Shown: piece by piece, positions 8,809-48,067 of the stretch
How the letters are laid out: every line of letters begins with the position of its first letter
Position numbering within the stretch: position 1 is the first letter of the stretch
NCBI GenBank assembly: GCA_023150805.1
Contig: JAKLKF010000015.1
Coordinates: 1-64,000 of the forward strand
From: Myxococcota bacterium
GTDB lineage: Bacteria; Myxococcota_A; UBA796; UBA2385
Direction of reading: 5' to 3'
DNA length: 64,000 nt
Made by a program: the position numbers and the translations under genes
The notes under the pieces: model-generated
Seen by the model: the letters and a program-made list of their open reading frames with translations, nothing else
Told to the model about the DNA's origin: nothing
Database searches by the model: none

Positions 8809-8816
8809 GCCTGGGC

Positions 8817-9806: not shown

Positions 9807-9813
9807 GGCGCGC

Positions 9814-9819: not shown

Positions 9820-9847
9820 GCGCCGGCGGTGGCCGGGCGCGAGGGGC

Positions 9848-11935: not shown

Positions 11936-12953
<1,018 letters not shown>

Positions 12954-29386: not shown

Positions 29387-32158
29387 CTATGGGTAGACCA
29401 GCGGGTCGCCGTCGTCGGCGTCCCCGCAGGCGTCGGTCCAGCCGTCGTCGTCGGCGTCGTCACCGGCCTGGGCGCAGAAGGGGAAGGTCATCCCCGCCAC
29501 GTCGCCCGCCCCGCTGCCCGAGCCGGTGAACCACTCGTACACCGCGTCCTCGGTGCCCTTGCCGATGCCCAGGCTGTCCGCGGGCAGGTCGGCCACCGCC
29601 TCGGTCAGGTCGACCGAGGAGGGGTCCAGCCCCGTGCCGCAGGTCCAGCCGACCAGGCCGTCCACCGCGCTCATCTCGCCGTACTCGAGCAGGAAGCTGC
29701 CGTCCTCGCGCAGGATGTAGGTGAAGGTGTTGGCGCCTCCCAGCGAGTACTCGTCCACCTCGATGAAGTAGACCGCCACCGCGTCGTCGTGCTCGATCCA
29801 GTGGACCTCGCCGCCGGCGCTGGGGTTCAGGTCGTCCCACCAGGCGGCGATGCCGGCCACCCGCCCGCTCTCGAAGGTCACGGCGGCCTCGCCGTAGTCG
29901 GTGGTCGCCGAGCCGAACAGCAGCCGGCCGTTGCTGATGACGTAGGCGTTGCTGCGGTCGCTGCCGCAGAAGGGGTACCGGAAGCTGCCGAAGGAGATGT
30001 ACGAGGCCGAGTCGTCGGACAGCCGCAGGGTCGTCACCGTGTCCGTGTCGCCGGCGTCCGTCCCACCGTCGCAGTCGTTGTCCAGTCCGTCGGTGTCGTC
30101 CTCCCAGGCGTAGGGGTGCACGCTGCGGTCGGTGTCGTCGCAGTCGTCCCCCGTCCACTCGTCGGACTCGAAGCCGTCCTGGTCCGCGTCGTAGTCGTTC
30201 CACCCGTCGCAGTCGGTGTCGACGCCGTCGTACCAGCTCTCCTCCGCGTCGGGGTTGACGTCCTCGTCGGTGTCGTCGCAGTCGCCGCCGGCGTCGGCCC
30301 AGCCCGACAGCGGCTCGCAGGAGACGAAGCGGTCGGCGTCGCTGCCGAAGCCGTCGCCGTCCTCGTCGGGGTAGTAGGTCGTCGCGTCCGTCGTACCGAC
30401 GTCGTCGTCGTCGGCGGCCCCGTTGCAGTCCTCGTCGGTGTCCAGGTCGTCGCAGATCTCGACCTGGTCGGGGTTCACGTCGGACCGGCCGTCGTCGCAG
30501 TCGGTGCCGCCCCCCGCGGGCGCACGCCAGCCATCGGCGTCGGCGTCGTAGTCGTCCGCGTCGTCACAGTCCTGGTCGACGCCGTCGTACCAGATCTCGT
30601 CGGCGCCCGGGTTCACGGCCGGGTCGTAGTCGTCGCAGTCCTGGTCGTCCAGGCCGTAGCCCTCCCGCGGCTCGCAGGTGACCACGGGCGTGCCGGTGGC
30701 GCCGTAGCCGTCTTCGTCGGCGTCCGGGTACAGGACGTCGGGGTCCACCACGCCCGGGTCGGCGTCGTCCGCCAGGTCGTTGCAGTCCTCGTCGACGTCG
30801 GCGTCGTCGCAGATCTCGTCGGCCGAGGGGTTCACCTGTTCCGCCTCGTCGTCGCAGTCCCCGCCGCCGAAGGCCGCGCTGTCGAAGCCGTCCTGGTCGG
30901 CGTCGTAGTCGCTCCAGTCGTCGCAGTCCTGGTCGAAGCCGTCGTACCAGACCTCGACCGCGTCGGGCCCCACGGTGATGTCGCCGTCGTCGCAGTCGCC
31001 CTCGGCCACGCCGTAGCCGTCACCGTCGTGGTCGGTCGTCTGGCAGTAGAGGTTCTCGCCGCCGGGCGTGCCGTAGTCGCTGCCCGGCGCCCAGCTCTCG
31101 TAGGAGGCGCACCACCCGTCGGCATCGTCGTTCAGGTCGGCGGCCAGGAAGAAGGCGTCCAGGGTCATGCTCGCGCCGTCGGGATCGGGCATCGAGGCCC
31201 CGTCGTCCCAGGACACGTCGTCGAGCCGCACGTCGCCGGCGTAGACGGCGAAGCTGTCCGACTCGTTGGACAGGTTCAGCCCCTCCCACTGCCAGGCGAC
31301 CACGACCCCGCCGTTCGTGCGGAAGTCAGCGTTGCTGCCGAGCACCAGGTAGGCCCCCGGCTCCAGGGACAAGAGCCCGTCCGGGCTGATCTTGTGGTCG
31401 GCGTCGCCGTCGGACCGCAGCGTCAGCCCGTCCAGGTAGAGCGTGCGGCCGCTCTGGTTCTGGACCTCGACCCACTCGCCGTCGGGATCGGCCACGTCGC
31501 GCGGGTTGGCCATGATCTCCGTGATGACCAGGTCCCCGAAGGCCCACGCGCCCTCGTCCACCAGCCCGTCGCAGTCGTTGTCGACCAGGTCGCCGGCCAC
31601 CTCGTCCAAGAGCGGGCTGCGGCCGGCGTCCGCGTCGTCGCAGTCGGGGACCTCGGCGCAGGTGGTCACCTCGTCGCCGTCCGCGTCGTAGCCCTCGTCC
31701 ACGTCCCCGTCGCCGTCGTTGTCGACGCCGTCGCACTCCTCGCCGTCCGCGCAGTCGGCGATCCCGTCGTCGTCGGCGTCGCCGAAGTCCTCGTCCACGT
31801 CGCCGTCGCCGTCGTTGTCCAGCCCGTCGCACTCCTCGGCGTCCAGGCAGTCGGCGGTCCCGTCGGCGTCGGTGTCGGCCCAGCCCTCGTCCACCAGGTC
31901 GTCGCAGTCCTCGTCCGCGCCGTTGCACAGCTCCTCGGCGCCGGGGAAGACGTCGGGATCGGTGTCGTCGCAGTCGCCGTCCTCCAGCGGGACGCCGTCG
32001 TTGTCCTGGTCGGTCAGGGCGCCGGTGGTGCCGCCGTCCCCGGTGCCGCCGTCGCCCGTGGGCGTCCCGCCGCCGGTGTCGTCGCCGTCCTTGTCGCCGC
32101 AGGCCGGCAAGGTGAGCAGGAGGAGGAGGCCGAAGGGGAGGAGGGCGAGGTGGGACAC
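29387..32158 (-). CDS. MopE-repeat lipoprotein with lamin-tail domain
   Basis: A 923-residue surface lipoprotein (lipobox LTLPACGD). Residues 25-210 contain thrombospondin-3/MopE-like units (DCDDTDPDVFPGAEELCNG, DADGTADC). A lamin-tail domain lies near 215-370 (AFGDLVITEIMANPRDVADP, DGEWVEVQNQSGRTLYLDG). Then come about eight more units of the type DCDD..VNPxAxExWYDGVDxDCD, each a candidate calcium loop. The C-terminal domain (about 705-900) has an adhesion-type beta fold (AYVISNGRLLFGS, IAAWWDDLNPSAGG). GTG 32158 is chosen because GGAG precedes it and the signal peptide begins there. The domains suggest a calcium-stabilised stalk displaying a C-terminal head. Confidence 0.85.
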   Translation of the reverse strand: MSHLALLPFGLLLLLTLPACGDKDGDDTGGGTPTGDGGTGDGGTTGALTDQDNDGVPLEDGDCDDTDPDVFPGAEELCNGADEDCDDLVDEGWADTDADGTADCLDAEECDGLDNDGDGDVDEDFGDADDDGIADCADGEECDGVDNDGDGDVDEGYDADGDEVTTCAEVPDCDDADAGRSPLLDEVAGDLVDNDCDGLVDEGAWAFGDLVITEIMANPRDVADPDGEWVEVQNQSGRTLYLDGLTLRSDGDADHKISPDGLLSLEPGAYLVLGSNADFRTNGGVVVAWQWEGLNLSNESDSFAVYAGDVRLDDVSWDDGASMPDPDGASMTLDAFFLAADLNDDADGWCASYESWAPGSDYGTPGGENLYCQTTDHDGDGYGVAEGDCDDGDITVGPDAVEVWYDGFDQDCDDWSDYDADQDGFDSAAFGGGDCDDEAEQVNPSADEICDDADVDEDCNDLADDADPGVVDPDVLYPDADEDGYGATGTPVVTCEPREGYGLDDQDCDDYDPAVNPGADEIWYDGVDQDCDDADDYDADADGWRAPAGGGTDCDDGRSDVNPDQVEICDDLDTDEDCNGAADDDDVGTTDATTYYPDEDGDGFGSDADRFVSCEPLSGWADAGGDCDDTDEDVNPDAEESWYDGVDTDCDGWNDYDADQDGFESDEWTGDDCDDTDRSVHPYAWEDDTDGLDNDCDGGTDAGDTDTVTTLRLSDDSASYISFGSFRYPFCGSDRSNAYVISNGRLLFGSATTDYGEAAVTFESGRVAGIAAWWDDLNPSAGGEVHWIEHDDAVAVYFIEVDEYSLGGANTFTYILREDGSFLLEYGEMSAVDGLVGWTCGTGLDPSSVDLTEAVADLPADSLGIGKGTEDAVYEWFTGSGSGAGDVAGMTFPFCAQAGDDADDDGWTDACGDADDGDPLVYP

Positions 32159-32334
32159 GAAGGCTCCAGAGCGCACTGGCCTGAGGAGGAGCGGCGGGCG
32201 CGAGGCCGACCACCCGTAGCCGGGTGGTGCCATTGTTGCCGCCTTCGGCCGGACCTGCTGAGGCCTCGCCCGGGTGACCCAAGCGCCACGGGATCGTCAC
32301 CTCGGCGCCCCGCCGCGCGAGGGAGACTGCGCGC

Positions 32335-33129: not shown

Positions 33130-33522
33130 TCAAGGCGCCCGCCGGAGCTCCTCCACCGCCGCCCGGACCGCCTCGACCAGCTCCCGCGCCCGGAAGGGCT
33201 TCTGGATGATCCGCGCGGCGCCCAGCTGCTGGAGCTGGCCCATCTCCCGCCGCATCACCTTCGCCGTCAGGAAGATCACCGGCAGGTCGGCGCAGCCCTC
33301 CAGCGTCCGCAGCTCGCGCAGGGTCTGTGGCCCGTCCATGCCCGGCATCATCACGTCGAGCAGCACCACGTCCGGTCGCTGCTGCGAAGCCCGGGCCAGG
33401 GCCGCCGGGCCCCCCTCCACGCTGTCGACCTCCATCCCGCCGATGCCCTCCAGCATCAGGCGCACGACCTCTCGAATCGCCGGATCGTCGTCGACGTGCA
33501 GGACGCGCGGTACCGGGCTCAC
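33130..33522 (-). CDS. Single-domain response regulator
   Basis: A 130-residue receiver-only protein: acidic pocket VDDDPAIRE, phospho-Asp in VVLLDVMMPGMDG, Thr in VIFLTAKVM and Lys in RIIQKPFRA. It has no output domain, so it acts through protein contacts (CheY/Spo0F-like). Its start overlaps the stop of the kinase gene by four bases, indicating a cognate pair. Confidence 0.93.
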   Translation of the reverse strand: MSPVPRVLHVDDDPAIREVVRLMLEGIGGMEVDSVEGGPAALARASQQRPDVVLLDVMMPGMDGPQTLRELRTLEGCADLPVIFLTAKVMRREMGQLQQLGAARIIQKPFRARELVEAVRAAVEELRRAP

Positions 33523-35630
33523 GTCGGCGCTCCAGCGGTCACGGGCCCCTCCGCGGACAGCAGGCGGAAGGAGAAGGTCGTGCCGCGCGGCGCGGCCGAC
33601 TCGAACCAGATGCTACCGCCGTGCGCCTCGACAATGGCCTTGGCGATGCTCAGGCCCAGGCCGGTGCCGCCGCTGCCGCGCCGGTCGGTGGCGTCGGCCT
33701 GGGAGAAGGGCTGGAAGACCCGCGCGCGGAAGTCCTCGGGGATCCCCGGCCCCTGGTCGGTCACGTGCACGACGATGTGGCCGTCGGTGCGGACCATCGA
33801 CAGGAGCACCCGGCCGCCGGGGGGCGAGAACTTGACGGCGTTGCCGATGAGGTTGGTGAGCACCTGGAGCAGGCGGTCGCGGTCCCCGAGCACCAGCGCC
33901 GGCCCCGTGGCGAGCTCCCGCGCGAGCAGCACCCCGTGCAGGTCGGCGAAGCCCCGGTTGGCCTGGGCGGCGGCCTCGAGCAGCTCGGTGCCGTCCAGCA
34001 CCTCCATGCGCAGGCGCAGCCCGCCGGTGCTGATGCGCTCCATGTCCAGGATGTCGTTGATCAGCCGGACGAGGCGCTCGCCGCTGTCGTAGGCGACGTC
34101 GACCATCCGGCTGGCCGTCTCCGACAGGGGGCCCAGCAGCCCGTCCCGCAGGAGCTCCAGCGAGCCGAGCATCGAGGTCAGCGGCGTGCGCAGCTCGTGG
34201 CTCACGGTCGAGACGAACTCGTCCTTCATGCGCTCGACCGCCTTGCGCTCGGAGATGTCGCGCAGCACGCCCAGGAAGGCCGGGCCGTCCCCCAGCCCCA
34301 GCGCGCTGACCGACAGCTCCAGCGGGAAGCGGGTCCCGTCGGCCCGCTGCCCCTCGACCTCGTTGAGGCCCCCCACGACCCGGGAGGCCCGGTCGGCCCG
34401 GTAGCGCTGCACGTAGCCCTCGTGCCGCCCGCGATGGGGCTCGGGCATCAGCACCGAGACCGGCTGGCCGACCAGGTCCTCGACCGGAAAGCCGAACATC
34501 CGCTCGACCGCCGGGTTCGCCGTGCAGATCCGCCCCTGGTCGTCGATGGTGAGGATGCCGTCGACCGTGTTCTCGACGATGGCGCGGAGGTGCCGCTCCC
34601 TCGCCTCGAGCTCCCAGGTGGCGCTGCGGAGCATCGCCGTGCGGGCGTCGACCAGCCGGGTCACCGAGTCGGTCCGGCTGACCAGGGTGGCCACGGCGAC
34701 GGCGCTGGCTCCGGTCAGGGCCACCCCTGCCAGCAGCACGAACACCCCCAGGGTGGACCAGCCTGGCGCCGCCAGGGGCGCCGCGGGTCGTACGACGGCG
34801 AGCACGGACGCCCCACCGATGGGGATGCGGTGGACCGCGTGCACGCCCTCCTGCGCCCCGGCGGCGGTCAAGGCAGGCGCCGGGGAGGAGGGGTGCTGGT
34901 CCACCTGGTGCACGTGCAGCGGGGCGACCGGCCCCTGGCTCCAGTCGGTGAACAGGTACAGGTCGACGCCGCCGACGGCCTGCACGCCGGGCAGCCGCTC
35001 GTCCAGGACGAGGGCGGCCACGTCGTCGAGGTGGGTCGAGGCGACCACCAGGCCCGCGCGCGCGACGGCGACCTCCTCGCGCGCCCCCTGGCCCGGGACC
35101 TCCTTCTCGCGGGCGCGGCGCACGACCACCCGGCTCAGGGGCCGCTCGGCGGCCTCCAGCCCCTCCACCGAGACGCTCGAGCCGGTGCGCTGCGCTTCCT
35201 CGGCGGCGGCGCGCCAGGTGGCCCGGCTGCCGAAGTCCAGGGCGGCCAGGCCGGCGCCGGCGGGTTCGGCGAAGCGGACGCCGTAGCGGGTGGGCGCCCC
35301 CGCCTCCTCCGGGGTCGGCTCCAGCCACAGCACCGCCTCCAGCCCGGGGAAGCGCTCCAGGAACACCGCGGCGAAGGTCCGGAACTCCTCGGCCTCGACC
35401 CGCTCCGAGCCTCGGAAGAAGGCAGACATCGCCTCCACCACGCCGAGCTGGGCGGTCACCTCGCGCTCCAGCGCCAGCATGACCGAGCTGGCGGCGTCGG
35501 CGAAGGCGACCTGGTGCCGCGCGCGGTCCCGTCCGTACTCGTAGCGGTTCGCCAACCGCACCGAGCCGACCGTGGCCAGCAGGCCCAGGCCGGAGAGCAG
35601 GATCGTGGGCGCGTGGCGAGTGAGGGCCAT
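33519..35630 (-). CDS. Sensor histidine kinase (CHASE-PAS-HisKA-HATPase)
   Basis: A 703-residue membrane kinase. The first helix is TILLSGLGLLATVGSV. The extracytoplasmic CHASE-like domain (about 45-285) carries VMLALEREVTAQLGVVEAM and the typical RFPGLEAVLWL. The second helix is near 310-335. A PAS domain follows (AIVENTVDGILTIDD, NPAVERMFGFP). HisKA has the phospho-His in STVSHELRTPLTSML (about residue 477), and the ATPase has NLIGNAVKFSPPGG and GTGLGLSIAKAIVEAHGG. It passes phosphate to the overlapping receiver gene. TAGCCT sits eleven bases before ATG 35630. Confidence 0.92.
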   Translation of the reverse strand: MALTRHAPTILLSGLGLLATVGSVRLANRYEYGRDRARHQVAFADAASSVMLALEREVTAQLGVVEAMSAFFRGSERVEAEEFRTFAAVFLERFPGLEAVLWLEPTPEEAGAPTRYGVRFAEPAGAGLAALDFGSRATWRAAAEEAQRTGSSVSVEGLEAAERPLSRVVVRRAREKEVPGQGAREEVAVARAGLVVASTHLDDVAALVLDERLPGVQAVGGVDLYLFTDWSQGPVAPLHVHQVDQHPSSPAPALTAAGAQEGVHAVHRIPIGGASVLAVVRPAAPLAAPGWSTLGVFVLLAGVALTGASAVAVATLVSRTDSVTRLVDARTAMLRSATWELEARERHLRAIVENTVDGILTIDDQGRICTANPAVERMFGFPVEDLVGQPVSVLMPEPHRGRHEGYVQRYRADRASRVVGGLNEVEGQRADGTRFPLELSVSALGLGDGPAFLGVLRDISERKAVERMKDEFVSTVSHELRTPLTSMLGSLELLRDGLLGPLSETASRMVDVAYDSGERLVRLINDILDMERISTGGLRLRMEVLDGTELLEAAAQANRGFADLHGVLLARELATGPALVLGDRDRLLQVLTNLIGNAVKFSPPGGRVLLSMVRTDGHIVVHVTDQGPGIPEDFRARVFQPFSQADATDRRGSGGTGLGLSIAKAIVEAHGGSIWFESAAPRGTTFSFRLLSAEGPVTAGAPT

Positions 35631-36549: not shown

Positions 36550-37410
36550 ATGACGGTCATCACCGCCATCGCCACCCTCGGCGGCCTCTGCGTCCTGCTG
36601 GCCCTGCTGCTGGTCCTGGCGGACCGCAAGCTCCAGGTGTTCGAGGACCCCCGCATCGACGTCGTCGAGGACCTGCTCCCCCACGCCAACTGCGGCGCCT
36701 GCGGCCAGCCCGGCTGTCGCTCCTTCGCCGAGGCCCTGGTCGGCGGGCGCGCCCAGCCGGCCCAGTGCACCGTCGGCACGGCTGACTCCCGCCAGGCCAT
36801 CGCCGCCTTCCTGGGGGTCGACGTCGGGGCCGCCGACAAGCGGGTGGCCCGCCTGGCCTGCGCCGGCGGCAGCAACGTCGCCCGTGACCGCGCCCTCTAC
36901 CGGGGCACCTCGTCCTGCGCGGCGGCGGCGACCGTCGGCGGCGGCAAGGGCTGCACCTGGGGCTGCCTGGGCCTGGCCGACTGCGCGACCGCCTGCACCT
37001 TCGGCGCCATCACGATGGACGCGCACGACCTGCCCGTCGTGGACGAGGAGAAGTGCACGGCCTGCGGTGACTGCGTGCTGGCCTGTCCCAAGGACCTCTT
37101 CAGCATCCAGCCGGCCCGCCACCGCCTGTGGGTGGCCTGCCGCTCGGCCCTCGCCGGCGACGAGATCCTCGCCGACTGCGAGGTCGCCTGCACCGCCTGC
37201 GGCCGCTGCGCCATGGACGCGCCCGGCCTCATCACCATGAAGGGCAACCTGCCCGTCATCGACTACGCCCGCGGTCCCCTGAGCCCGGTCCCGACCGAGC
37301 GGTGCCCCACCGGCGCCATCGTCTGGCTGGACGAACACCAGGGTCCCGTCAAGGGCGCCGCCGCTCACCCCGTCATCCGCAAGGGGCCCCGCCCCGCCGC
37401 CCGCACCTGA
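36550..37410 (+). CDS. rnfB: Rnf complex subunit B, with one ferredoxin cluster lost
   Basis: A 286-residue iron-sulfur protein, the entry point for ferredoxin electrons in the Rnf ion pump. The N-terminal anchor helix is LGGLCVLLALLLVLA. The 4Fe-4S domain is CGACGQPGC plus a later Cys. Next come the conserved CTWGCLGLADCATACTFGAI and CTACGDCVLACP clusters. The final double-ferredoxin unit is altered: motif one reads CTACGRC with the fourth Cys replaced (AMDAPG), and motif two has lost its first three Cys but keeps CPTGAI. In this fold Cys 1-3 and 8 bind one cluster and Cys 4-7 the other, so exactly one cluster is gone. It heads an operon; ATG 36550. Confidence 0.9.
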   Translation: MTVITAIATLGGLCVLLALLLVLADRKLQVFEDPRIDVVEDLLPHANCGACGQPGCRSFAEALVGGRAQPAQCTVGTADSRQAIAAFLGVDVGAADKRVARLACAGGSNVARDRALYRGTSSCAAAATVGGGKGCTWGCLGLADCATACTFGAITMDAHDLPVVDEEKCTACGDCVLACPKDLFSIQPARHRLWVACRSALAGDEILADCEVACTACGRCAMDAPGLITMKGNLPVIDYARGPLSPVPTERCPTGAIVWLDEHQGPVKGAAAHPVIRKGPRPAART

Positions 37411-37421
37411 GAGAGGACGAC

Positions 37422-40400
37422 ATGAAGGCCCGTGACCTCATCGAGGCAGTCAAGAAGGTGTTTCCCGGACAACAGGACGCGGCGGCGACCGCTGTGAAGT
37501 ACCCCGGCGAGCGCGCAGCCCTGGACGGCAACACCGCCGTCATCATGTGCGAGCGCGAGTCGACCGACGGCGCGGGCGCCTACCCGATCACCCCCTCGAC
37601 GCAGATGGGCGAGTACTGGGCCGAGAACGCCGCCGCCGGGCACGTCAACATCTCCGGCCGCCCGCTCATCTTCATCGAGCCCGAGGGCGAGCACGCCGCC
37701 GCCGCCGTCACCGCCGGCCTCTCGATGACCGGCCTGCGGGCCGCGAACTTCAGCTCGGGCCAGGGCATCGCCTACATGCACGAGTCGCTGTACGCGGCGG
37801 TGGGCAAGCGGCTGACCTACGTGCTCAACATCGGCGCGCGGGCCATGACCAAGGCCAACCTCAACGTGCACGCCGGCCACGACGACTACCACGCCGTCGA
37901 CGACACGGGCTTCTTCCAGCTCTTCGCCAAGAACGCCCAGCACGCCGCCGACCTCAACATCATCTGCCACCGGATCGCCGAGCTGGCGCTGACCCCGGGC
38001 ATCATCGCCCAGGACGGCTTCCTGACGACCCACCTCATCGAGTCGCTGCAGGTGCCCGAGCGCGAGCTGATCGCCGAGTACCTGGGCCGCCCCGACGACC
38101 TCATCGACACGCCGACCCCCGCGCAGCGGATCATCTACGGTGACAAGCGCCGTCGCATCCCGCTGCTGTGGGACATCGACAACCCGGTCATGGCCGGCCT
38201 GGTGCAGAACCAGGACAGCTACATGCAGTCCGTCGCGGCCCAGCGGCCCTTCTTCTTCGACCACATCGAAGAGCTCACCAACCAGGCCATGGCCGAGTAC
38301 GGCGCGCTCACCGGCCGCTACTACGACCGCGTGATGACCTGGAAGGCCGAGGAGGCCGACTACCTGCTGCTGGGCCAGGGCAGCGTCATCCCCTCCTGCG
38401 AGGTGGTGGCCGACTACCTGTTCAAGACCCGCGGCCTGAAGGTCGGCGTCGTCGACCTGGTCATGTTCCGCCCCTTCCCGGCCGACCGGCTCGCCGCCAT
38501 CCTCAAGGGCAAGAAGGCCGTCACCATCCTGGAGCGCCTCGACCAGCCGCTGGCCGTCGACCTGCCGCTGGCCCGCGAGGTCCGCGCGGTCCTCAGCAAG
38601 TGCCTGGAGAACGGCCGGGACCCGGCGCACCCGCTGCACAAGGGCCTGCCCGCCTGGACGAGGATGACCGACGCCCCGGTGGTCTACTCGGGCTCCTTCG
38701 GCATGGGCAGCCGCGACCTGCAGCCCGAGGGCATCATCGGCGCGGTGGAGAACATGCTGCCCGAGGGCGCCCGCAAGCCCTTCTTCTACCTGTCGATCGA
38801 CTTCCTGCGCGACAAGCCCTACACCCCCAAGCAGCGGATGTACCAGGAGCAGATCGCCCAGTCCTACCCGCGGGTCGCCGAGCTGACCGTCAAGGGCAGC
38901 GAGAACCCGAACCTGATGCCCGATGGCGCCATCACGGTGCGCTTCCACAGCATCGGCGGCTGGGGCGCCATCACGACCGGCAAGAACCTGGCGATGACCC
39001 TGTTCGACCTGCTGGGCTACCACATCAAGGCCAACCCCAAGTACGGCAGCGAGAAGAAGGGGCAGCCCACCACCTACTACCTGTCCGCCGCCCCCGAGCC
39101 GATCCGGGTGAACTGCGAGTACATCTTCGTCGACGTCGTGCTGTCGCCCGACCCCAACGTCTTCGGGCACACCAACGCCCTGGCCGGCCTCAAGCAGGGC
39201 GGCGTCTTCATCATCCAGAGCGACAAGAAGACGCCCGAGGCGGTCTGGCAGAGCATCCCGGCCGTCTTCCGGCAGCTCATCGTCAAGAAGGACATCAGGC
39301 TCTACGCGCTCGACGGCTTCCAGATCGCCCGGGACGAGGCGACCGACCCCGAGCTGCAGCTGCGCATGCAGGGCATCGCCTTCCAGGGCGCCTTCTTCGC
39401 CGCCAGCCCGGTGATGAAGCAGGCCGGCCTGACCGACAAGCAGCTCCTCGACGCGATCCGCTCCCAGCTCCAGCACAAGTTCGGGGCCAAGGGCGCGCGG
39501 GTGGTCGAGGACAACATGCGCGTCGTCAAGCGCGGCTTCGACGAGATGATGGCCGTGCCCCACGGCGCGGTCGCCGACGCGCCGCCGGTCGACGACACCG
39601 CCGGCGAGCCGCTGTTCAAGGAGCCGGCGCTGCCCGAGCTGATCAAGCGCCGCCCGCGCGGCCAGGAGGCGGCCACCGACGTGCACCGCTTCTGGGAGCA
39701 GACGGGCAACTTCTACGCCCGCGGCATGGGCAACGACAACATCACCGACCCCTTCATCGGCCTGGGCATCATGCCCGCGATCACGGCCACCTTCCGTGAC
39801 ATGACGGGCATCCGCTTCACCCACCCCGTCTGGGTGCCGGAGAACTGCACGGCCTGCGGCAAGTGCTACACGGTCTGTCCGGACACGGCGATCCCCGGCC
39901 TGGTCAACGAGGTCGGCCAGGTCCTCGAGACGGTGGTCAACCGCGTGCAGAAGCACGGCCACAAGGTCGAGCACCTGCCGCGGGCCAGCCGGACCATCGA
40001 GAAGCACCTGCGCGCCATCTTCGCCGAGGCCACCGAGAAGGACAGCGTCGCCGGGATGATGGAGGACGCGATCGGCCGCACCATCCGCGAGGCGGCCGAC
40101 GACCAGCGCGAGGCGGTGCGCGCCGAGCTGGAGCTGTTCCGCAAGGAGCTCGGCGGCTTCAAGCTGGCGCTGACCCGCCCCTACTGGACGGTCCGGGAGC
40201 AGAAGGAGAAGGGCAGCGGCGGCCTGCTGTCGATCACGGTGAACCCGACCACCTGCAAGGGCTGCATGGAGTGCGTCGCGGTCTGCGACGACGACGCGCT
40301 GCGGCCCATCACCCAGACCGAGGACTCCACCGTCCAGCTCCGCCGGGACTGGGACTTCTGGATGGACCTGCCGACCACGCCCGAGAAGTTCATCCGCATC

Positions 40401-42407
40401 GACGACCTGGAGGAGGGCGTCGGCGCCCTGGAGACCCTGCTGCTGGACAAGCGCAACTACCTCTCGGTCACCAGCGGCGACGGCGCCTGCCTGGGCTGCG
40501 CCGAGAAGACTGCCATCCACCTCTTCGTCGCGACGGTCGAGGCGCTGATGCAGGGGCGGGTCAAGCGCCACCTGGTGGCGCTGGACGACCTGATCGCGCG
40601 GCTGGAGCAGCACGTGCAGCTCAAGCTGATGCGCGGCCTGGACGTGGGGGACCCCCGCACCATCGCCCGCATCGTCGAGAGCATGGGCAACCAGGACGTC
40701 ACGCTGGCCTCGATCGCGCAGCAGGCCGAGAAGCTGCGCGGCGGCGACCCCATCGACCAGGACTGGCTCAAGCGGGTCACCGGCCTGGTGGGCGAGCTCA
40801 AGGCGCTGAAGTGGCGCTACACCCAGGGCGTGACCGGCAACGGCCGCTCGACCATGGGCATGCTCAACTCGACGGGCTGCTCGTCGGTGTGGGGCAGCAC
40901 CTGGCCCTTCAACCCCTACCCCTTCCCCTGGGCCAACCACCTGTTCCAGGACTCCACCTCGATGGCCATGGGTGTCTTCGAGGGGCACATGGCCAAGATG
41001 GCCGAGGGCTTCCGCGCCATCCGCAAGGCCGAGCTGGAGCTGGCCGGCAAGTACGATCCCAAGAAGCACGACGAGGCCTTCACCTTCTTCGGCTGGCAGC
41101 AGTTCACCGACGAGGAGTGGGAGCTGTGCCCGCCCGTCGTGGCGGTGGGCGGTGACGGCGCGATGTACGACATCGGCTTCCAGAACCTCAGCCGCGCGCT
41201 GATGTCGGGCAAGCCGATCAAGGTGGTGGTCCTGGACACCCAGGTCTACAGCAACACCGGCGGCCAGGCCTGCACCTCGGGCTTCATCGGCCAGGTCAGC
41301 GACATGGCCCAGTACGGCAAGGCCATCAAGGGCAAGGAGGAGATCCGCAAGGAGATCGGCCTCATCGGCATGGCGCACCGCACGACCTATGTCCTGCAGA
41401 GCACCATCGCCAACCCGGGCCACATGATCGACGGCTTCATCAAGGGCCTGAAGGCGCGCCGGCCGGCGCTGTTCAACCTGTACACCTCCTGCATGCCCGA
41501 GCACGGCATCGGCGACGATCTCGGCTACGCCCAGGGCAAGCTGGCGGTCGAGTCCCGCGCCTACCCGCTGTTCAAGTACGATCCGGACAAGGGCAAGACC
41601 CCGCAGGAGTGCTTCGACCTGGACGGAAACCCGGCCATGGAGCTGGACTGGCCGGTCTACAAGCTGCACTACCGGGAGGGTGGTCGCACGCAGGTCATGG
41701 AGCTGCCGATGACCTTCGCCGACTTCGCCGTCACCGAGGCGCGGTTCCGCAAGCACTTCCGGGTGGCCCCGCCGGACACCTGGAACGACAACATGGTGCC
41801 GCTGCACGACTTCCTCGGCATGGACGAGGGCGAGCGCGAGGGTCGCTTCCCCTACATCTGGACGGTCAACAAGAAGCAGCAGCTCTCCCGGCTGCTGGTC
41901 GCCAAGCCGATCGTGCAGTCCTGCGAGGAACGCAGGGACTTCTGGGTCTTGCTCAAGGCCATCGCGAGGGTCGACGAGCAGCAGGTCGACCGGTCCAGCA
42001 TCGAGGCCGAGGTCCGGCAGGATGTCGTCAACCGCCTGGCCAACGGGCTGATGCAGCTCGTCGGCGGGCAGGGCGCCGGCGCGGCAGTGACCCTCACCTC
42101 GACACCCGGCCCCTCGGCGGCGCCTGTGGCCTCCTCCGGCAACGGCGCCGGCGGCGCCTACATGGCACCCTGGATCGACACGGCCCAGTGCACCGCCTGC
42201 GACGAGTGCATCAAGATCAACCCCAAGGTCTTCGTGTACAACGCCGACAAGAAGGTGGTGATCAAGGACGCCATGGCCGGGACCTTCGAGCAGCTCGTCA
42301 AGGCGGCCGAGAAGTGCACCGCGCAGGTCATCCACCCCGGGCTGCCCGCCGATCCCACCGCCAAGGGCATGGACAAGCTCGTGGCCCGCGCCCAGAAGTA
42401 CAACTAG
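37422..42407 (+). CDS. Long pyruvate:ferredoxin oxidoreductase with fused C-terminal ferredoxin
   Basis: A 1,661-residue single-chain 2-oxoacid oxidoreductase, versus about 1,200 for classical PFOR. It converts pyruvate and CoA to acetyl-CoA and CO2, reducing ferredoxin. Domains in order: pyrimidine-binding (TDGAGAYPITPSTQMGEYW, residues 45-65), transketolase-like C domain, gamma domain (SIGGWGAITTGK), then the double 4Fe-4S region with CTACGKCYTVC (809) and CKGCMECVAVC (945). The TPP domain has GACLGCAEK (1023), TGCSSVWGS (1153), GGDGAMYDIGFQN (1244) and YTSCMPEHG, which together give the third cluster and TPP/Mg site. After a Gly/Ala/Pro linker, residues 1590-1632 form a single-cluster ferredoxin (CTACDEC plus a distal Cys). 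Long insertions separate the cluster motifs. ATG 37422 is 11 bases after rnfB, and rnfC follows in 10 bases. Confidence 0.93.
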   Translation: MKARDLIEAVKKVFPGQQDAAATAVKYPGERAALDGNTAVIMCERESTDGAGAYPITPSTQMGEYWAENAAAGHVNISGRPLIFIEPEGEHAAAAVTAGLSMTGLRAANFSSGQGIAYMHESLYAAVGKRLTYVLNIGARAMTKANLNVHAGHDDYHAVDDTGFFQLFAKNAQHAADLNIICHRIAELALTPGIIAQDGFLTTHLIESLQVPERELIAEYLGRPDDLIDTPTPAQRIIYGDKRRRIPLLWDIDNPVMAGLVQNQDSYMQSVAAQRPFFFDHIEELTNQAMAEYGALTGRYYDRVMTWKAEEADYLLLGQGSVIPSCEVVADYLFKTRGLKVGVVDLVMFRPFPADRLAAILKGKKAVTILERLDQPLAVDLPLAREVRAVLSKCLENGRDPAHPLHKGLPAWTRMTDAPVVYSGSFGMGSRDLQPEGIIGAVENMLPEGARKPFFYLSIDFLRDKPYTPKQRMYQEQIAQSYPRVAELTVKGSENPNLMPDGAITVRFHSIGGWGAITTGKNLAMTLFDLLGYHIKANPKYGSEKKGQPTTYYLSAAPEPIRVNCEYIFVDVVLSPDPNVFGHTNALAGLKQGGVFIIQSDKKTPEAVWQSIPAVFRQLIVKKDIRLYALDGFQIARDEATDPELQLRMQGIAFQGAFFAASPVMKQAGLTDKQLLDAIRSQLQHKFGAKGARVVEDNMRVVKRGFDEMMAVPHGAVADAPPVDDTAGEPLFKEPALPELIKRRPRGQEAATDVHRFWEQTGNFYARGMGNDNITDPFIGLGIMPAITATFRDMTGIRFTHPVWVPENCTACGKCYTVCPDTAIPGLVNEVGQVLETVVNRVQKHGHKVEHLPRASRTIEKHLRAIFAEATEKDSVAGMMEDAIGRTIREAADDQREAVRAELELFRKELGGFKLALTRPYWTVREQKEKGSGGLLSITVNPTTCKGCMECVAVCDDDALRPITQTEDSTVQLRRDWDFWMDLPTTPEKFIRIDDLEEGVGALETLLLDKRNYLSVTSGDGACLGCAEKTAIHLFVATVEALMQGRVKRHLVALDDLIARLEQHVQLKLMRGLDVGDPRTIARIVESMGNQDVTLASIAQQAEKLRGGDPIDQDWLKRVTGLVGELKALKWRYTQGVTGNGRSTMGMLNSTGCSSVWGSTWPFNPYPFPWANHLFQDSTSMAMGVFEGHMAKMAEGFRAIRKAELELAGKYDPKKHDEAFTFFGWQQFTDEEWELCPPVVAVGGDGAMYDIGFQNLSRALMSGKPIKVVVLDTQVYSNTGGQACTSGFIGQVSDMAQYGKAIKGKEEIRKEIGLIGMAHRTTYVLQSTIANPGHMIDGFIKGLKARRPALFNLYTSCMPEHGIGDDLGYAQGKLAVESRAYPLFKYDPDKGKTPQECFDLDGNPAMELDWPVYKLHYREGGRTQVMELPMTFADFAVTEARFRKHFRVAPPDTWNDNMVPLHDFLGMDEGEREGRFPYIWTVNKKQQLSRLLVAKPIVQSCEERRDFWVLLKAIARVDEQQVDRSSIEAEVRQDVVNRLANGLMQLVGGQGAGAAVTLTSTPGPSAAPVASSGNGAGGAYMAPWIDTAQCTACDECIKINPKVFVYNADKKVVIKDAMAGTFEQLVKAAEKCTAQVIHPGLPADPTAKGMDKLVARAQKYN

Positions 42408-42417: not shown

Positions 42418-43809
42418 ATGTCGGCCTCGTCCCACAAGACCTTCCGGCACGGGGTGCACCCCCCCGAGCAGAAGGACGACACCAAGGACCTGCCCATCCG
42501 GCAGTTCCCCTTCGCGCCGTCCCTGGCCGTGCCGCTGTCCCAGCACATCGGAAAGCCCGCGCGGCCCGTGGTGCGCGAGGGGCAGGAGGTCCGGCGGGGC
42601 CAGCTCATCGCCGAGCCCGACGGCGTGATGTCGGTCGCGATGCACGCACCGGCCTCGGGCACGGTGAAGCGCATCGGGCTGTTGCCCGGGGGCTCGGGGA
42701 TGGTGCCCGGGATCTGGATCGCGCCCTTCCCGGGCTCGACCCAGGAGGTGACCGAGGGCACGCCCGTCCACCCCGACACCGCCTCGCCCCAGGAGATCCT
42801 GCAGGCGATCCAGCGGGCCGGGGTGGTGGGCCTGGGCGGGGCGGCCTTCCCCACCCACGTCAAGCTGACCGTGCCGGCGGGAAAGGTCATCGACACCGTG
42901 ATCATCAACGGCGTCGAGTGCGAGCCCTACCTGACCACCGACCACCGCGTGATGCTGGAGCAGGACGCCGACATCTTCCACGGCATCCGCTACCTGCTGC
43001 GGCTCACGGGCGCGCCGCGCTGCATCATCGGCGTCGAGTCGAACAAGCCCGACGCCGTGGCGCACCTGCAGGCCCGCGTGCCGGCGGGGCTGCCGGTGAC
43101 GGTGGAGATGGTGCCGGTCAAGTACCCGCAGGGCGCCGAGAAGATGTTGATCACCGCGCTGCTGGGCCGGGAGGTCCCCTCGGGCGGCCTGCCCTCGGAC
43201 GTGGGCGTCGTCGTCGTCAACGTGGCCACCACCGCCGAGATCGGCCGCCTGCTGCCGCACGGCGGCGGGATCCAGGAGCGGGTGATCACCATCGGCGGCC
43301 CCGGGGTCAAGAAGAAGGGCAACTACCGGATCCCCATCGGCACCCCGCTGCGCTTCCTGCTGGAGACGGTGGGTGTCGAGGACGATCTCACCACGGTCTT
43401 CCTGGGCGGGCCCATGATGGGCCGCGCCGCGACCAGCCTGGATCTGTCCATCACCAAGGGCACCAGCGGCGTCATCGCCTTCACCAAGCGCCAGACCGGC
43501 AAGGAGGCGCAGGCGCGCGAGTATCCCTGCATCCGCTGCGGCGAGTGCGTCGAGGCCTGCCCCATCTTCCTCAACCCCAGCCAGCTCGGGCTGCTCGCGC
43601 GCGTGGGGCGCTACGAGGAGATGGCCAGCGACTTCCACCTGCTGGACTGCTTCGAGTGCGGATCCTGCAGCTTCGTCTGCCCGGCTCACATCCCCCTCGT
43701 CCACCGCTTCCGCGTGGCCAAGGCCGCGGTGCGCAAGGAGCGTGCGGCCGCCGCCTCGAAGCAAGCAGCCCAGAAGGAAGTCGAGCGGGTGAAGGCGGAG
43801 CACACATGA
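42418..43809 (+). CDS. rnfC: Rnf complex subunit C
   Basis: A 463-residue peripheral subunit that passes electrons to NAD. The family opening is GVHPPEQKDDT and LSQHIGKPARP, then HAPASGTVKRIG. The flavin/NADH-binding region is AGVVGLGGAAFPTHVKL and NGVECEPYLTTD. Two C-terminal 4Fe-4S motifs are complete: CIRCGECVEACP and CFECGSCSFVCP. The C-terminus is a short Lys/Ala/Glu-rich helix, not the very long repeat tail of enterobacterial RsxC. The start lies 10 bases after the PFOR stop. It overlaps rnfD by four bases. Confidence 0.95.
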   Translation: MSASSHKTFRHGVHPPEQKDDTKDLPIRQFPFAPSLAVPLSQHIGKPARPVVREGQEVRRGQLIAEPDGVMSVAMHAPASGTVKRIGLLPGGSGMVPGIWIAPFPGSTQEVTEGTPVHPDTASPQEILQAIQRAGVVGLGGAAFPTHVKLTVPAGKVIDTVIINGVECEPYLTTDHRVMLEQDADIFHGIRYLLRLTGAPRCIIGVESNKPDAVAHLQARVPAGLPVTVEMVPVKYPQGAEKMLITALLGREVPSGGLPSDVGVVVVNVATTAEIGRLLPHGGGIQERVITIGGPGVKKKGNYRIPIGTPLRFLLETVGVEDDLTTVFLGGPMMGRAATSLDLSITKGTSGVIAFTKRQTGKEAQAREYPCIRCGECVEACPIFLNPSQLGLLARVGRYEEMASDFHLLDCFECGSCSFVCPAHIPLVHRFRVAKAAVRKERAAAASKQAAQKEVERVKAEHT

Positions 43810-44831
43810 GCGGCCTGGACAAGACCCTGCTGGTCTCCTCGTCCCCCCACGTGCGAAAGGGGCGGGCGGTCGACCGCATCATGTTCGAGGTGATGCTGGC
43901 CCTGCTGCCGGCCGTGGCGTGGTCGCTGTGGTCCTTCGGCCTCGGGGCTCTGTTCACCCTGCTGACCGCGATCGCCGCCAGCGTGCTGGCCGAGCACCTC
44001 GCCTGCCGGATGGTGGGCCGTCCCTCCACCGTGCGCGACGGCTCCGCCATGCTCACCGGGCTGCTCTTCGGCCTCACCCTGCCGCCGGGCCTGGCCCTGT
44101 GGATGGTGGTGGTGGGCGCCTTCATCGCCATCTTCCTGGGCAAGGCCCTCTTCGGCGGGTTGGGCTACAACCCCTTCAACCCGGCCCTGGTCGGACGCGC
44201 CGTGATGCAGGCGACCTTCCCCGTCGCGATGACCACCTGGGTCGCCTCCACCGCGCCCGAGCGCTTCACCCGCCTGCCGTCGACGACGCTGGCCTGGCCC
44301 CTGACCCAGCCGGTCGTCGACGTGGTCTCCGGGCCCACGCCCCTGTCCGCCTGGAAGTTCTCCCACCAGGCGACGGACGCCGCGGACCTGTTCATGGGAT
44401 CGACCATGGGCTCGGCGGGCGAGACCAGCGCCCTGCTCATCCTGCTGGGCGGCGTCTACCTGGTCGGCCGCAAGGTGATGGGCTGGCGCATCCCGGTCAC
44501 CATCCTGGCCACGGTCGCCGTCGTCAGCGGTGCCTTGTGGCTGTGGGATCCCACGACCTACGCCTCGCCCTGGTTCCACCTGTTCTCCGGCGGGCTGATG
44601 CTCGGCGCCGTGTTCATGGCCACCGACATGGTCGGCTCGCCGATGACCCACACCGGCGTGGTGCTCTACGGCATCCTCATCGGCGTGCTGGTGGTCGTGA
44701 TCCGGACCTGGGCGGGCATGCCCGAGGGTGTGATGTACGCGATCCTTCTCGGAAACGCCCTGGCGCCCCACCTGGACCGGCTGATCCAGCCGCGGGTCTA
44801 CGGCACCACCCGCAAGGGGAAGGCTCCATGA
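43806..44831 (+). CDS. rnfD: Rnf complex subunit D
   Basis: A 341-residue integral subunit related to NqrB. It begins SSSPHVRKGRAVDRIMFEV and has about nine or ten helices. GSAMLTGLLFGLTLPPG is the conserved helix pair. The covalent FMN attachment region reads SGPTPLSAWK, with the acceptor Thr near residue 178. The Gly/Asn motif is GGLGYNPFNPALVGRA. The ATGA overlaps with rnfC and rnfG show translational coupling. It forms part of the ion-translocating core with RnfA and RnfE. Confidence 0.95.
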   Translation: MSGLDKTLLVSSSPHVRKGRAVDRIMFEVMLALLPAVAWSLWSFGLGALFTLLTAIAASVLAEHLACRMVGRPSTVRDGSAMLTGLLFGLTLPPGLALWMVVVGAFIAIFLGKALFGGLGYNPFNPALVGRAVMQATFPVAMTTWVASTAPERFTRLPSTTLAWPLTQPVVDVVSGPTPLSAWKFSHQATDAADLFMGSTMGSAGETSALLILLGGVYLVGRKVMGWRIPVTILATVAVVSGALWLWDPTTYASPWFHLFSGGLMLGAVFMATDMVGSPMTHTGVVLYGILIGVLVVVIRTWAGMPEGVMYAILLGNALAPHLDRLIQPRVYGTTRKGKAP

Positions 44832-45505
44832 GCGCGCCCTCCCCCGCCCTGGCCATGACCCGCACCCTGGTGGGCGCCGGCGTGGTCTGCGGCTTCCTCA
44901 TCGTCGTGGCCTACGAGCTCACCGCGCCCATCATCCAGGAGAACCGCATCGAGGCCCGGCAGGCGGCGGTCTTTGAGGTGCTTCCCGGCGCGGTCGCGAC
45001 CGCCACCTTCCAGCTCCAGGCCGACGGGTCCCTGCAGGCCGTGCCCGACGAGACCACCGCCGGCGACCTGGTCTTCGCCGGCTACGACGCGCAGGGCGGC
45101 CTGGTCGGCGCGGCCCTGGAGGCCCAGGGCATGGGCTACCAGGACACCATCCGCCTGATCTACGGCTACTCCTTCGACAAGGACGCGATCATCGGCATCA
45201 AGGTGCTGGAGAGCCGCGAGACCCCCGGGCTGGGCACCCGCGTCGAGACCGACCCGGTCTACCAGGCGAACTTCGACGCCCTGGACGTCTCGCTGGACGC
45301 CGCCGGCCAGGCGCTGGCCAATCCCATCGAGGCGGTCGGGGCCGGCAAGAAGCAGCACCCCTGGCAGGTCGACTGCATCACGGGGGCGACCATCAGCTCC
45401 AAGGCCATCGCCAACATGCTGGGGACCAGCGCCGCGAAGTGGATGCCCGCCATCGCCGCGCGCCCCGAGGCCCTGGCCCGGCCGGAGGGAGCCCATGTCC
45501 AGTAG
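44828..45505 (+). CDS. rnfG: Rnf complex subunit G
   Basis: A 225-residue periplasmic flavoprotein subunit with one N-terminal helix (TRTLVGAGVVCGFLIVVAYE). The FMN-binding signature is DCITGATISSKA, with the flavin-linked Thr near residue 188. The preceding GLGTRVETDPVYQ block is also conserved. It carries electrons between the RnfD flavin and the membrane iron-sulfur site. It overlaps rnfD by four bases and rnfE by eleven. Confidence 0.95.
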   Translation: MSAPSPALAMTRTLVGAGVVCGFLIVVAYELTAPIIQENRIEARQAAVFEVLPGAVATATFQLQADGSLQAVPDETTAGDLVFAGYDAQGGLVGAALEAQGMGYQDTIRLIYGYSFDKDAIIGIKVLESRETPGLGTRVETDPVYQANFDALDVSLDAAGQALANPIEAVGAGKKQHPWQVDCITGATISSKAIANMLGTSAAKWMPAIAARPEALARPEGAHVQ

Positions 45506-46124
45506 CAGCCCCCCCACCACGACCGACGAGTTCATCAAGGGCCTGTGGCGGGAGAACCCCGTCTTCGTCCAGGTGCTCGGCATGTGTCCGACCCTGGCCG
45601 TGACGAACTCCGCCGTCAACGCCGTGGCGATGGGCCTGGCGACGACCTTCGTCCTGGTGATGTCCAACCTGGCCATCTCCGCGATCCGCCGCTTCGTGCC
45701 CAAGCAGGTGCGCATCGTCACCTACATCCTGCTCATCGCGACCTTCGTCACCGTGGTCGACTACGCGATCGCCGCCATCTCGCTGCCGCTGCACAAGGCG
45801 CTGGGCGCCTTCATCAGCCTGATCGTGGTGAACTGCATCATCCTGGGCCGGGCCGAGGCCTTCGCCGGCAAGAACCCGATCCTGCCCTCGCTGGCCGACG
45901 GCCTGGGCATGGGCATCGGCTTCACCGGCGCGCTGCTCACGCTGGGCGTCGTGCGAGAGGTGCTCGGCATGGGCACGCTCTTCGGCGTGGCCTTGTTCCC
46001 CGCCGCCTTCCAGCCCTGGGTCATCATGGTCCTGCCGGCCGGCGGCTTCTTCACCCTGTCGGCCTGGATGTTGGTGTTCAACGCCCTGCGCCGCCGCCAG
46101 CGCGCGCTGTCGGAGCCGGCATGA
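45495..46124 (+). CDS. rnfE: Rnf complex subunit E
   Basis: A 209-residue, six-helix membrane subunit homologous to NqrD. The two conserved Cys that help hold the intramembrane iron-sulfur centre are present in VLGMCPTLAVTNS and VNCIILGRAEAFA. With RnfA it forms the pseudo-symmetric translocation core. It overlaps rnfG upstream and rnfA downstream. Confidence 0.95.
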   Translation: MSSSSPPTTTDEFIKGLWRENPVFVQVLGMCPTLAVTNSAVNAVAMGLATTFVLVMSNLAISAIRRFVPKQVRIVTYILLIATFVTVVDYAIAAISLPLHKALGAFISLIVVNCIILGRAEAFAGKNPILPSLADGLGMGIGFTGALLTLGVVREVLGMGTLFGVALFPAAFQPWVIMVLPAGGFFTLSAWMLVFNALRRRQRALSEPA

Positions 46125-46702
46125 CGCCCGAACCCCACTGGCAGATCCTGCTCAACTCCGCCCTGGTCAACAACTTCGTGCTGGCCTGGTTCCTGGGCAT
46201 CTGCCCCTTCCTGGGCGTGTCCAACAAGGTCGGCACCGCCAGCCGGATGGGCGCGGCGGTCACCTTCGTGATGCTGGTGACCGCGCTGGCCACCTGGGGC
46301 ATCAACATGCTGCTGGACACCGTGGGCGCGCCCTACCTGCGGCTCATCGCCTTCATCGCGGTGATCGCCTCGACCGTCCAGCTCGTCGAGATGTTCATCA
46401 AGAAGACCAGCCCGGCGCTGTTCAAGGCGCTCGGCATCTTCCTTCCCCTCATCACGACCAACTGCGCGATCCTGGGCCTTGCGCTGCTGCAGACCAACAA
46501 GGGCTACGATCTCGGCCGGGCCATCATCTTCGCCCTGGGATCGGGCCTGGGCTTCACGCTGGCCCTGGTGCTGATGGCCGGCGTCCGCGAACGCCTGGAG
46601 CTTGCGGACATGCCCGACCTGGTCAAGGGCACCGCCGCGTCGCTGGCCGTCGCCGGGATCCTCTCGGTCGCCTTCATGGGCTTCGCCGGGCTCGGAAGCT
46701 GA
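46121..46702 (+). CDS. rnfA: Rnf complex subunit A
   Basis: A 193-residue, six-helix membrane subunit homologous to NqrE. It retains the iron-sulfur Cys in FLGICPFLGVSNK and TTNCAILGLALL, in inverted topology relative to RnfE. It starts at ATG 46121 within the rnfE stop. A 69-base gap with a fresh AGGAGG then precedes the reductase gene, so this is the last Rnf subunit of the operon. Confidence 0.95.
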   Translation: MTPEPHWQILLNSALVNNFVLAWFLGICPFLGVSNKVGTASRMGAAVTFVMLVTALATWGINMLLDTVGAPYLRLIAFIAVIASTVQLVEMFIKKTSPALFKALGIFLPLITTNCAILGLALLQTNKGYDLGRAIIFALGSGLGFTLALVLMAGVRERLELADMPDLVKGTAASLAVAGILSVAFMGFAGLGS

Positions 46703-46771: not shown

Positions 46772-47623
46772 ATGCGGCTCACCGACTACGACACCACCGA
46801 TCGCTTCACCGCGCGGGTCGTCTCCACCGAACGCATCTCCCCCCCCGAGGTCGAGGAGGTCCGCGAGCTGGTCCTCGACGTGGGCCGCGACCTGGCGGTG
46901 ACCGCCGGGCAGACCCTGGGCGTGCTGGCGCCCGGCCAGGCCGAGTTCGGCCAGGCGCACCACTTCCGCCTGTACACCGTGGCCGACATGCCGGAGCGCG
47001 CGGGGGGCCGCACCCGCCTCCGCATCGCCGTCCGGCGCTGCGACTACATCGACCCCTACAGCGGCGAGCGCTACCCCGGGGTCGCCAGCAACTACCTGTG
47101 CGACCTGCGTGCCGGCGACGAGCTCACGATGTCGGGTCCCTACGGCCTGGCCTTCCCGGTGCCGGCCGAGCCCGACGCCCAGCTCGTGCTCATCGGCATG
47201 GGCACGGGCATCGCGCCCTTCCGGGCCTTCCTGCGCCACCTCTACAACGACGTGCCCTCTTTCCGGGGGCGGGTCATCCTCTTCCACGGCGGGCGCACCG
47301 GCCTGGACCTGCTCTACCACAACGACGAGCGGGACGACTTCGCCCTGTACCAGGACAAGGGGACCTTCGAGGCGATCAAGGCGCTGTCCCCCCGGCCCGA
47401 CTGGACCGGGAGCATCGACTGGGCCGAGGCGATCGAGCCGCGCGGCGCCGAGCTGTGGCAGATGATGGCGTCGCCGGACACCTACGTCTACCTGGCGGGC
47501 CTCCAGGAGATCTCCGACCGCCTGGACGGGGTCTTCGCCGGGCTGGCCGGCAGCCCCGAGCGCTGGGCCCGGCGCAAGGCGGAGCTGCGCGCCGGCGGCC
47601 GCTGGGTGGAGCTGCTCTACTGA
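46772..47623 (+). CDS. Plant-type ferredoxin-NADP+ reductase
   Basis: A 283-residue cytosolic flavoenzyme. The FAD-binding beta barrel has HFRLYTVADMP (the RxYS-like motif), the loop SNYLCDLRAGDELTMSGPYG, and the NADP-domain start LIGMGTGIAPFRAFLRHLY. The remaining NADP fold (FHGGRTGLDLLYHNDERDD, TYVYLAGLQEI) and the C-terminal Tyr stacked on FAD (GRWVELLY) match plant-type FNR. It exchanges electrons between reduced ferredoxin and NADP. Its place directly after rnfA, with a good AGGAGG, links the PFOR/Rnf system to NADPH supply. Confidence 0.9.
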   Translation: MRLTDYDTTDRFTARVVSTERISPPEVEEVRELVLDVGRDLAVTAGQTLGVLAPGQAEFGQAHHFRLYTVADMPERAGGRTRLRIAVRRCDYIDPYSGERYPGVASNYLCDLRAGDELTMSGPYGLAFPVPAEPDAQLVLIGMGTGIAPFRAFLRHLYNDVPSFRGRVILFHGGRTGLDLLYHNDERDDFALYQDKGTFEAIKALSPRPDWTGSIDWAEAIEPRGAELWQMMASPDTYVYLAGLQEISDRLDGVFAGLAGSPERWARRKAELRAGGRWVELLY

Positions 47624-47641: not shown

Positions 47642-48067
47642 GTGCACCCCTTCCGTCCGCTCAGCCAGGTCACCGGCGCCGCCGAGGTCTCCGCCACCCA
47701 CGAGGTGCTGATGGACGACCTCGCGCAGATCCTCGACAGCGAGGACGGCGCCGAGTCCGCCACGCTGCTGGCCCGCATCCAGGCCCAGATGCCGTGGCAC
47801 TTCCAGCTCGAGGAGGAGCGGGACGGCGTCTTCGACTGGATCCTGATGCTGGCCCCCGACCAGGCGGCCGAGGTGGAGGCGCTCATCGCCGACCACGTCC
47901 TGCTGCTGGAGGAGTCGGCCGCGCTGCGGCCGCCGGTCCGCGGGGATGACCACCGGGACCTGGCCGCGACGCTGCAGCTCGAGGCCTTCGCCGAGCACCT
48001 GCGCCAGCACGAGCGGCGGGAGAGCTCGGCGCTGCAGCTCGCCCTGGAGATCGCCGAGGCGACCTGA
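47642..48067 (+). CDS. Hemerythrin-like (HHE) protein
   Basis: A 141-residue, all-helical cytosolic protein with metal-ligand spacing like hemerythrin HHE proteins: THEVLMDDL, MPWHFQLEEERDG, LIADHVLLLEES and AEHLRQHERRESSAL. A non-haem di-iron site would bind or sense oxygen. GTG 47642 follows AGGAGG 18 bases after the reductase stop, so it is the last gene of the operon. A role in guarding the oxygen-sensitive PFOR/Rnf proteins is inferred from context. Confidence 0.65.
   Translation: MHPFRPLSQVTGAAEVSATHEVLMDDLAQILDSEDGAESATLLARIQAQMPWHFQLEEERDGVFDWILMLAPDQAAEVEALIADHVLLLEESAALRPPVRGDDHRDLAATLQLEAFAEHLRQHERRESSALQLALEIAEAT

Follow-up and report, generated by a model that had tools for sequence, protein, structure and literature searches.

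A long pyruvate:ferredoxin oxidoreductase with a tethered ferredoxin, encoded within the rnf operon and apparently coupled to Rnf

The window analyzed here is a stretch of 64,000 nucleotides from a Myxococcota bacterium (contig JAKLKF010000015.1, positions 1 to 64,000, assembly GCA_023150805.1), and its forward strand carries an operon in which all six Rnf subunits (rnfA–E and rnfG) are encoded together. The gene rnfB (36550–37410, +) encodes a 286-aa Fe–S subunit that is the expected ferredoxin partner of Rnf (Pfam FeS PF04060 and Fer4). Starting with an ATG 11 bp past its stop codon, the gene at 37422–42407 (+) encodes a pyruvate:ferredoxin oxidoreductase (PFOR) of 1,661 aa with a C-terminal ferredoxin, as identified by Pfam, NCBIfam, and structure matches. 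It ends 10 bp ahead of the ATG of rnfC (42418–43809, +; 463 aa; TIGR01945 with 485 bits at a cut-off of 246). Then follow, on the same strand, rnfD (43806–44831; PF03116), rnfG (44828–45505; FMN_bind PF04205), rnfE (45495–46124), and rnfA (46121–46702)—the latter two both matching Rnf-Nqr PF02508—and a gene for a 283-aa ferredoxin–NADP reductase-like protein of the PetH/BoxA type (FNR; 46772–47623, +), the place of which is conserved across phyla. Directly after the FNR gene, a hemerythrin-like protein (PF01814) is encoded at 47642–48067; a similar gene also stands ahead of korA in locus L120. On the minus strand next to this operon (33130–35630, −), a response regulator and a PAS-type histidine kinase are recognized by eye as possible regulators. 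At 29387–32233 (−) lies the gene of a 948-aa Asp-rich repeat protein with many DCDD/DADGDG motifs that, judged by eye, is probably exported and metal binding.

The long PFOR contains the single-chain PFOR domain set (POR_N, PFOR_II, POR, dicluster Fer4, and TPP) complete and in order, with Pfam matches to POR_N, POR, PFOR_II, Fer4, and TPP_enzyme_C; all positions given for it are on the + strand. Residues 1–808 (37422–39845) comprise the POR_N (TPP/pyruvate), PFOR_II, and POR gamma domains, as assigned by Pfam and by alignment with Escherichia coli YdbK, in which T57, E90, and R140 correspond to YdbK T27, E60, and R110. The first internal 4Fe–4S motif (C809/812/815/819; 39846–39878) is separated from the second (C945/948/951/955; 40254–40286) by insertion 1 (residues ~825–935; 39894–40226), which is ~80 residues longer than its YdbK counterpart. 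Two ligands of the proximal cluster, C1023 and C1026 (40488–40499), precede insertion 2 (residues ~1027–1134; 40500–40823), which was recognized from the CxxC–GCSS spacing relative to YdbK. The third ligand, C1153 of the GCSS motif (40878–40880), is identified by the cysteine listing, the alignment of 80 sequences described below, and the YdbK alignment. The TPP/Mg site (41145–41270) is formed by GGDGAMYDIG with D1245 and DTQVYSNTGGQ with T1273, V1275, and N1278, which align with YdbK D963, T991, C993, and N996 and lie within the TPP_enzyme_C assignment. C1357 (41490–41492) aligns with YdbK C1071 and is the fourth proximal-cluster ligand, an addition to the earlier note on this DNA. A flexible linker (residues ~1548–1579; 42063–42158) then leads to the tethered single-cluster ferredoxin (residues 1580–1661; 42159–42404) with C1590/1593/1596/1632. 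The chain, hence, keeps the TPP/Mg and substrate residues and the ligands for three 4Fe–4S clusters in addition to that of the ferredoxin. From these conserved residues, pyruvate is most likely the substrate; another 2-oxoacid could fit.

That earlier note, made from the letters of the window, had described internal 4Fe–4S motifs lying far apart, a stretched CxxC-to-GCSS interval, a full set of cluster and TPP ligands, and a ferredoxin behind a linker, and in all of this it holds. The motifs are 136 residues apart as opposed to 56 in YdbK, and the CxxC-to-GCSS distance is 127 residues as opposed to 25; the ligands are confirmed by the YdbK alignment and by 16 cysteines that are invariant in relatives; and the C-terminal domain matches Fer4_13 at 1585–1638. 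The note had also presented the chain as exceptional, which it is not: chains built this way are the norm in a widespread subfamily. Against TIGR02176, the NCBIfam equivalog of single-chain PFORs, the chain scores 400 bits and thus falls below the cut-off of 911, so that it ranks as a PFOR homologue but not as a member of this equivalog, and is placed in a separate subfamily.

An AlphaFold2 (AF2) model of residues 500–1661 reached a pLDDT of 78 and a pTM of 0.79. Insertion 1 is herein predicted as a confident helical bundle (pLDDT mostly >90) and insertion 2 as one long helix (1026–1071) with smaller helices. The linker, at about 1548–1578, is disordered (pLDDT <50), and the C-terminal ferredoxin is again confident. 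The best fold matches of the long-PFOR model are the PFORs of Moorella thermoacetica (6cin) and Desulfovibrio africanus (1b0p), over ~1,075 columns. Modeled alone, the ferredoxin domain has a pLDDT of 96.8 and matches D. africanus ferredoxin I (1fxr) best, with a TM score of 0.86 by target length and an rmsd of 1.2 Å; its profile matches ferredoxin I 1dax with E=2.6e-8. The C-terminal domain is, hence, predicted to have the CxxCxxC...C single-cluster fold of the ferredoxin I type, and the structure prediction of the chain alone that the earlier note had proposed for its C-terminal Cys motif comes out in favor of a ferredoxin fold. Conservation is lowest in the linker: among relatives, the stretch corresponding to positions 1540–1580 varies from 33 to 63 residues in length.

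A single scan yielded at least 591 confirmed relatives. The best 80 were kept; these are nearly all full length with 64–74% identity and, being the most similar relatives and in many cases MAGs, form a biased sample. They span approximately nine phyla: Bacteroidota, Pseudomonadota, Planctomycetota, Myxococcota, Acidobacteriota, Verrucomicrobiota, Calditrichota, and Hydrogenedentota, plus a Binatia MAG. A tenth, Gemmatimonadota, is added by cultured Gemmatirosa with the same layout of a ferredoxin-tailed PFOR within rnf. Its locus (L156) lies on the 1.1-Mb plasmid NZ_CP007129.1 of Gemmatirosa kalamazoonensis and reads korA–korB–rnfB–PFOR-Fd–rnfCDGEA; this named strain makes a handy test organism. 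An alignment of 80 full-length proteins, made up of 78 from the best 80 loci plus those of L121 and the window, shows all 16 cluster-ligand cysteines to be invariant, the four of the ferredoxin included, so that the pattern is not due to chance. Wherever a ferredoxin-tailed long PFOR was inspected, its TPP motifs were intact. Haem–copper oxidase (COX1) was found in 19 of the 19 carrier genomes tested. In an even sample of 142 Myxococcota genomes, 14 contain a match to the long PFOR; one genome of this sample, G151, has a sequence identical to that of the Myxococcales MAG L012. The ferredoxin-tailed forms on contigs of sufficient length, at ~73% identity (L148–L151) and at ~50% (L139–L141), are rnf-linked; no FNR was detected in the latter group. 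The PFOR tree is a quick one, in which the positions of the long-branched paralogues described below and of the unlinked L142 are unsure.

The linkage to Rnf is close. In 63 of 64 testable loci (those of the best 80 with at least 1.5 kb downstream), rnfC stands directly behind the long PFOR within 600 bp. The usual order is rnfB–PFOR–rnfC–D–G–E–A–FNR, with rnfB immediately ahead of PFOR in most non-Bacteroidota loci; the order in Bacteroidota is PFOR–rnfC–D–G–E–A–FNR–rnfB. At L051, the PFOR is apart from rnf, and rnfC–D–G–E–A–FNR–rnfB is found on another contig of that genome. L021 has only 877 bp downstream, with FNR directly behind PFOR and no rnf between; its genome carries rnf elsewhere, in cluster L152. 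As a control, the surroundings of 10 classical PFORs (5.7–20 kb around each) contained no Rnf genes (0 of 10), and two of these PFORs come from genomes that also carry the long rnf-linked form. Whether PFORs of this length are common without linked rnf genes had been raised in the earlier note as a point against its reading; such genes are the exception among the loci sampled. PFOR distances correlate with those of RnfA–E and FNR at r 0.82–0.91, a range obtained without an unlinked calibration gene. Two records labeled as proteobacteria (L048 and L044) are of the Bacteroidota type in gene order and in the sequences of both PFOR and RnfC, and in each the nearest relative is identical for the two proteins, which points to transfer of the whole cluster or to a binning error. 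Gene linkage is proof of joint function or regulation, not of contact.

The insertions do not mark this linkage. L142 (genome G153; 8001–12662, −) is a stand-alone long PFOR with both insertions and no ferredoxin tail; it has no rnf neighbors, and nothing in its genome scored above the cut-off of the rnfC family. The tie between insertions and Rnf implied in the earlier note, hence, falls away, and the insertions are ruled out as specific Rnf-docking markers. In the Myxococcota sample, it is the ferredoxin tail that marks Rnf linkage, with L142 as the one negative case.

The genome of the window contains a second rnf cluster (L117; G000:C111, minus strand) in the order korA, korB, a 760-aa protein, rnfB, a 1,414-aa PFOR paralogue, and rnfC, D, G, E, and A. 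The paralogue (L117 5843–10087, −) has lost the TPP site and the proximal-cluster ligands and keeps both internal 4Fe–4S motifs. The same layout, whole or cut off where a contig ends, is found in L119, L120, L144–L147, and L152, the last from an Acidobacteriota MAG; in L118, a ferredoxin gene at the contig start lies ahead of rnfB. Among eight such ligand-less paralogues (L117, L118, L119, L144–L147, and L152; the L120 copy was too incomplete and was left out), the two internal motifs retain their full set of eight cysteines in 8 of 8, and the four proximal ligands are lost in 8 of 8, with the TPP and substrate residues largely gone. Insertion 1 is retained. Loss of the gamma domain is not pressed, as it is undetected by Pfam and a weak alignment is present. 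Wherever a contig covers both rnfB and rnfC, the paralogue lies between them; korAB is usually upstream, and no FNR was detected in these clusters. The 760-aa protein (L117 10897–13179, −) consists of a ferredoxin joined to a degenerate relative of the C-terminal half of PFOR. Similar proteins are encoded at L120 6152–8530, L122 1–2222, and L150 14118–15539, and Pfam shows nothing in this type beyond the degenerate half and, in some, the fused ferredoxin. In L012 and L150, korA, korB, and a protein of this type precede an intact PFOR–rnf–FNR cluster. Because the internal cluster motifs are kept within an rnf operon while the catalytic ligands are lost, the simplest reading of these sequences is that the PFOR-shaped protein would serve Rnf without catalysis of its own by carrying electrons.

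Each of the parts has known counterparts. Classical single-chain PFORs (D. africanus 1b0p/7plm, M. thermoacetica 6cin; TIGR02176) share the domain order, the TPP site, and the proximal and two internal 4Fe–4S clusters, whereas the long PFOR is ~430–490 residues longer, has two insertions and a fused ferredoxin, and is encoded within an rnf cluster. D. africanus ferredoxin I (1fxr/1dax) has the fold and single-cluster Cys pattern in common with the tail but is a free protein, as opposed to the covalently tethered domain here. In Euglena and Cryptosporidium, pyruvate:NADP oxidoreductase (PNO) is a PFOR fused to an electron acceptor—a cytochrome-P450-reductase-like module—and Euglena meets oxygen. 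Compared by description, the long PFOR contains no fused flavodoxin/reductase module; its C-terminal domain is a ferredoxin, and FNR is a separate gene, with Rnf in addition. The 2-oxoacid:ferredoxin oxidoreductase KorAB, encoded beside the ligand-less and some intact clusters, is built of separate subunits and is not derived from the long PFOR. The Rnf complex, an ion pump with ferredoxin:NAD oxidoreductase activity (see the review PMC12174285 and, for Thermotoga maritima Rnf, PMC7414866), has the same six subunits; the operon described here additionally includes a 2-oxoacid oxidoreductase gene. A literature search, with most subscription journals outside its coverage, found no description of a PFOR with tethered ferredoxin in an rnf operon, and gene-cluster surveys may mention it. 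The association of PFOR with a tethered ferredoxin and Rnf is real and conserved, and this combination of known parts is apparently undescribed.

The preferred reading, with a probability of roughly 0.7, is that the long PFOR is catalytically active as a 2-oxoacid:ferredoxin oxidoreductase, most likely on pyruvate, with its carrier built in, and that its coupling to the surrounding Rnf is functional and probably physical as well. Pyruvate chemistry would take place at TPP and the proximal cluster, the ligands of which are present. Electrons would then pass along the two internal 4Fe–4S clusters, following the route in solved PFORs, and the tethered ferredoxin would load at the outermost of these and swing on its ~30–60-residue linker to RnfB. 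Direct transfer between ferredoxin and RnfB, in either direction, is likely, since the ligand-less paralogue stays in the rnf operon with both internal motifs. RnfB would exchange electrons with NAD via the rest of Rnf while ions move. The plant-type FNR of the same operon may be a second partner of the tethered ferredoxin, giving it a branch to and from NADP(H). Rnf works in either direction (PMC12174285, PMC7414866). Every step would be reversible: energy could be conserved from pyruvate oxidation, or acetyl-CoA and CO2 could be converted to pyruvate, driven by NADH and the respiratory ion gradient. Anaplerotic pyruvate synthesis and pyruvate oxidation are both possible. The classical reverse TCA cycle is not indicated, as ATP-citrate lyase gave no match above the cut-off in 10 carrier genomes. 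Replacement of pyruvate dehydrogenase by the PFOR was likewise considered; E1_dh matches occur in 19 of 19 carriers, and this family also covers 2-oxoglutarate and branched-chain enzymes, hence it is not decisive.

Classical PFORs act through free ferredoxin, and adjacency alone is compatible with plain co-expression, in which PFOR would reduce a general pool on which Rnf draws, with the fused domain as an internal relay that stays in the enzyme. The variable, disordered linker fits a mobile carrier instead, and the ligand-less clusters keep a ferredoxin beside rnfB, separate or fused to another protein, so that co-expression is judged unlikely. With FNR as the main partner, the system would be a two-protein pyruvate:NADP oxidoreductase, and Rnf a merely co-regulated neighbor that balances NADH. 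The main type of cluster has FNR as its conserved last gene, FNR distances track those of PFOR best (r 0.91), and in L021 FNR directly follows PFOR. Yet the gene adjoining PFOR is otherwise rnfC, the distant ferredoxin-tailed loci L139–L141 and L156 keep the PFOR-Fd inside rnf without a detected FNR, and the ligand-less clusters lack a detected FNR as well; this arrangement is considered distinctly improbable. That insertions and tail shield the clusters from oxygen, the Rnf link being secondary, accords with the oxidases of the sampled carriers and with the insertions present without Rnf in L142. It leaves the adjacent rnfC in 63 of 64 loci unexplained, and the ligand-less paralogues keep insertion 1 with no catalytic cluster to protect; such a shield is therefore very improbable.

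Beyond the coupling of PFOR to Rnf, one joint reading of both cluster types is tentative, at a little below even odds. The PFOR-shaped protein would be a structural, electron-conducting arm of Rnf, and Rnf would thereby become a 2-oxoacid:NAD oxidoreductase bound to the membrane; one branch would have an arm that has lost its catalysis and serves as an adaptor from KorAB to Rnf via its two remaining clusters and the neighboring ferredoxin. With the ligand-less paralogue, physical docking can be put to a direct test.

Reduced ferredoxin and the PFOR reaction commonly count as tools of anaerobes. The presence of the PFOR gene inside the rnf operon in approximately ten phyla suggests that PFOR and Rnf act as one machine in bacteria able to respire oxygen, and tethering would spare such cells a free pool of reduced ferredoxin. 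If true, respiring bacteria would gain a route of their own, linked to the ion gradient, that connects pyruvate with acetyl-CoA and CO2, which bears on why aerobes retain Rnf and on how heterotrophs fix CO2 in the dark.
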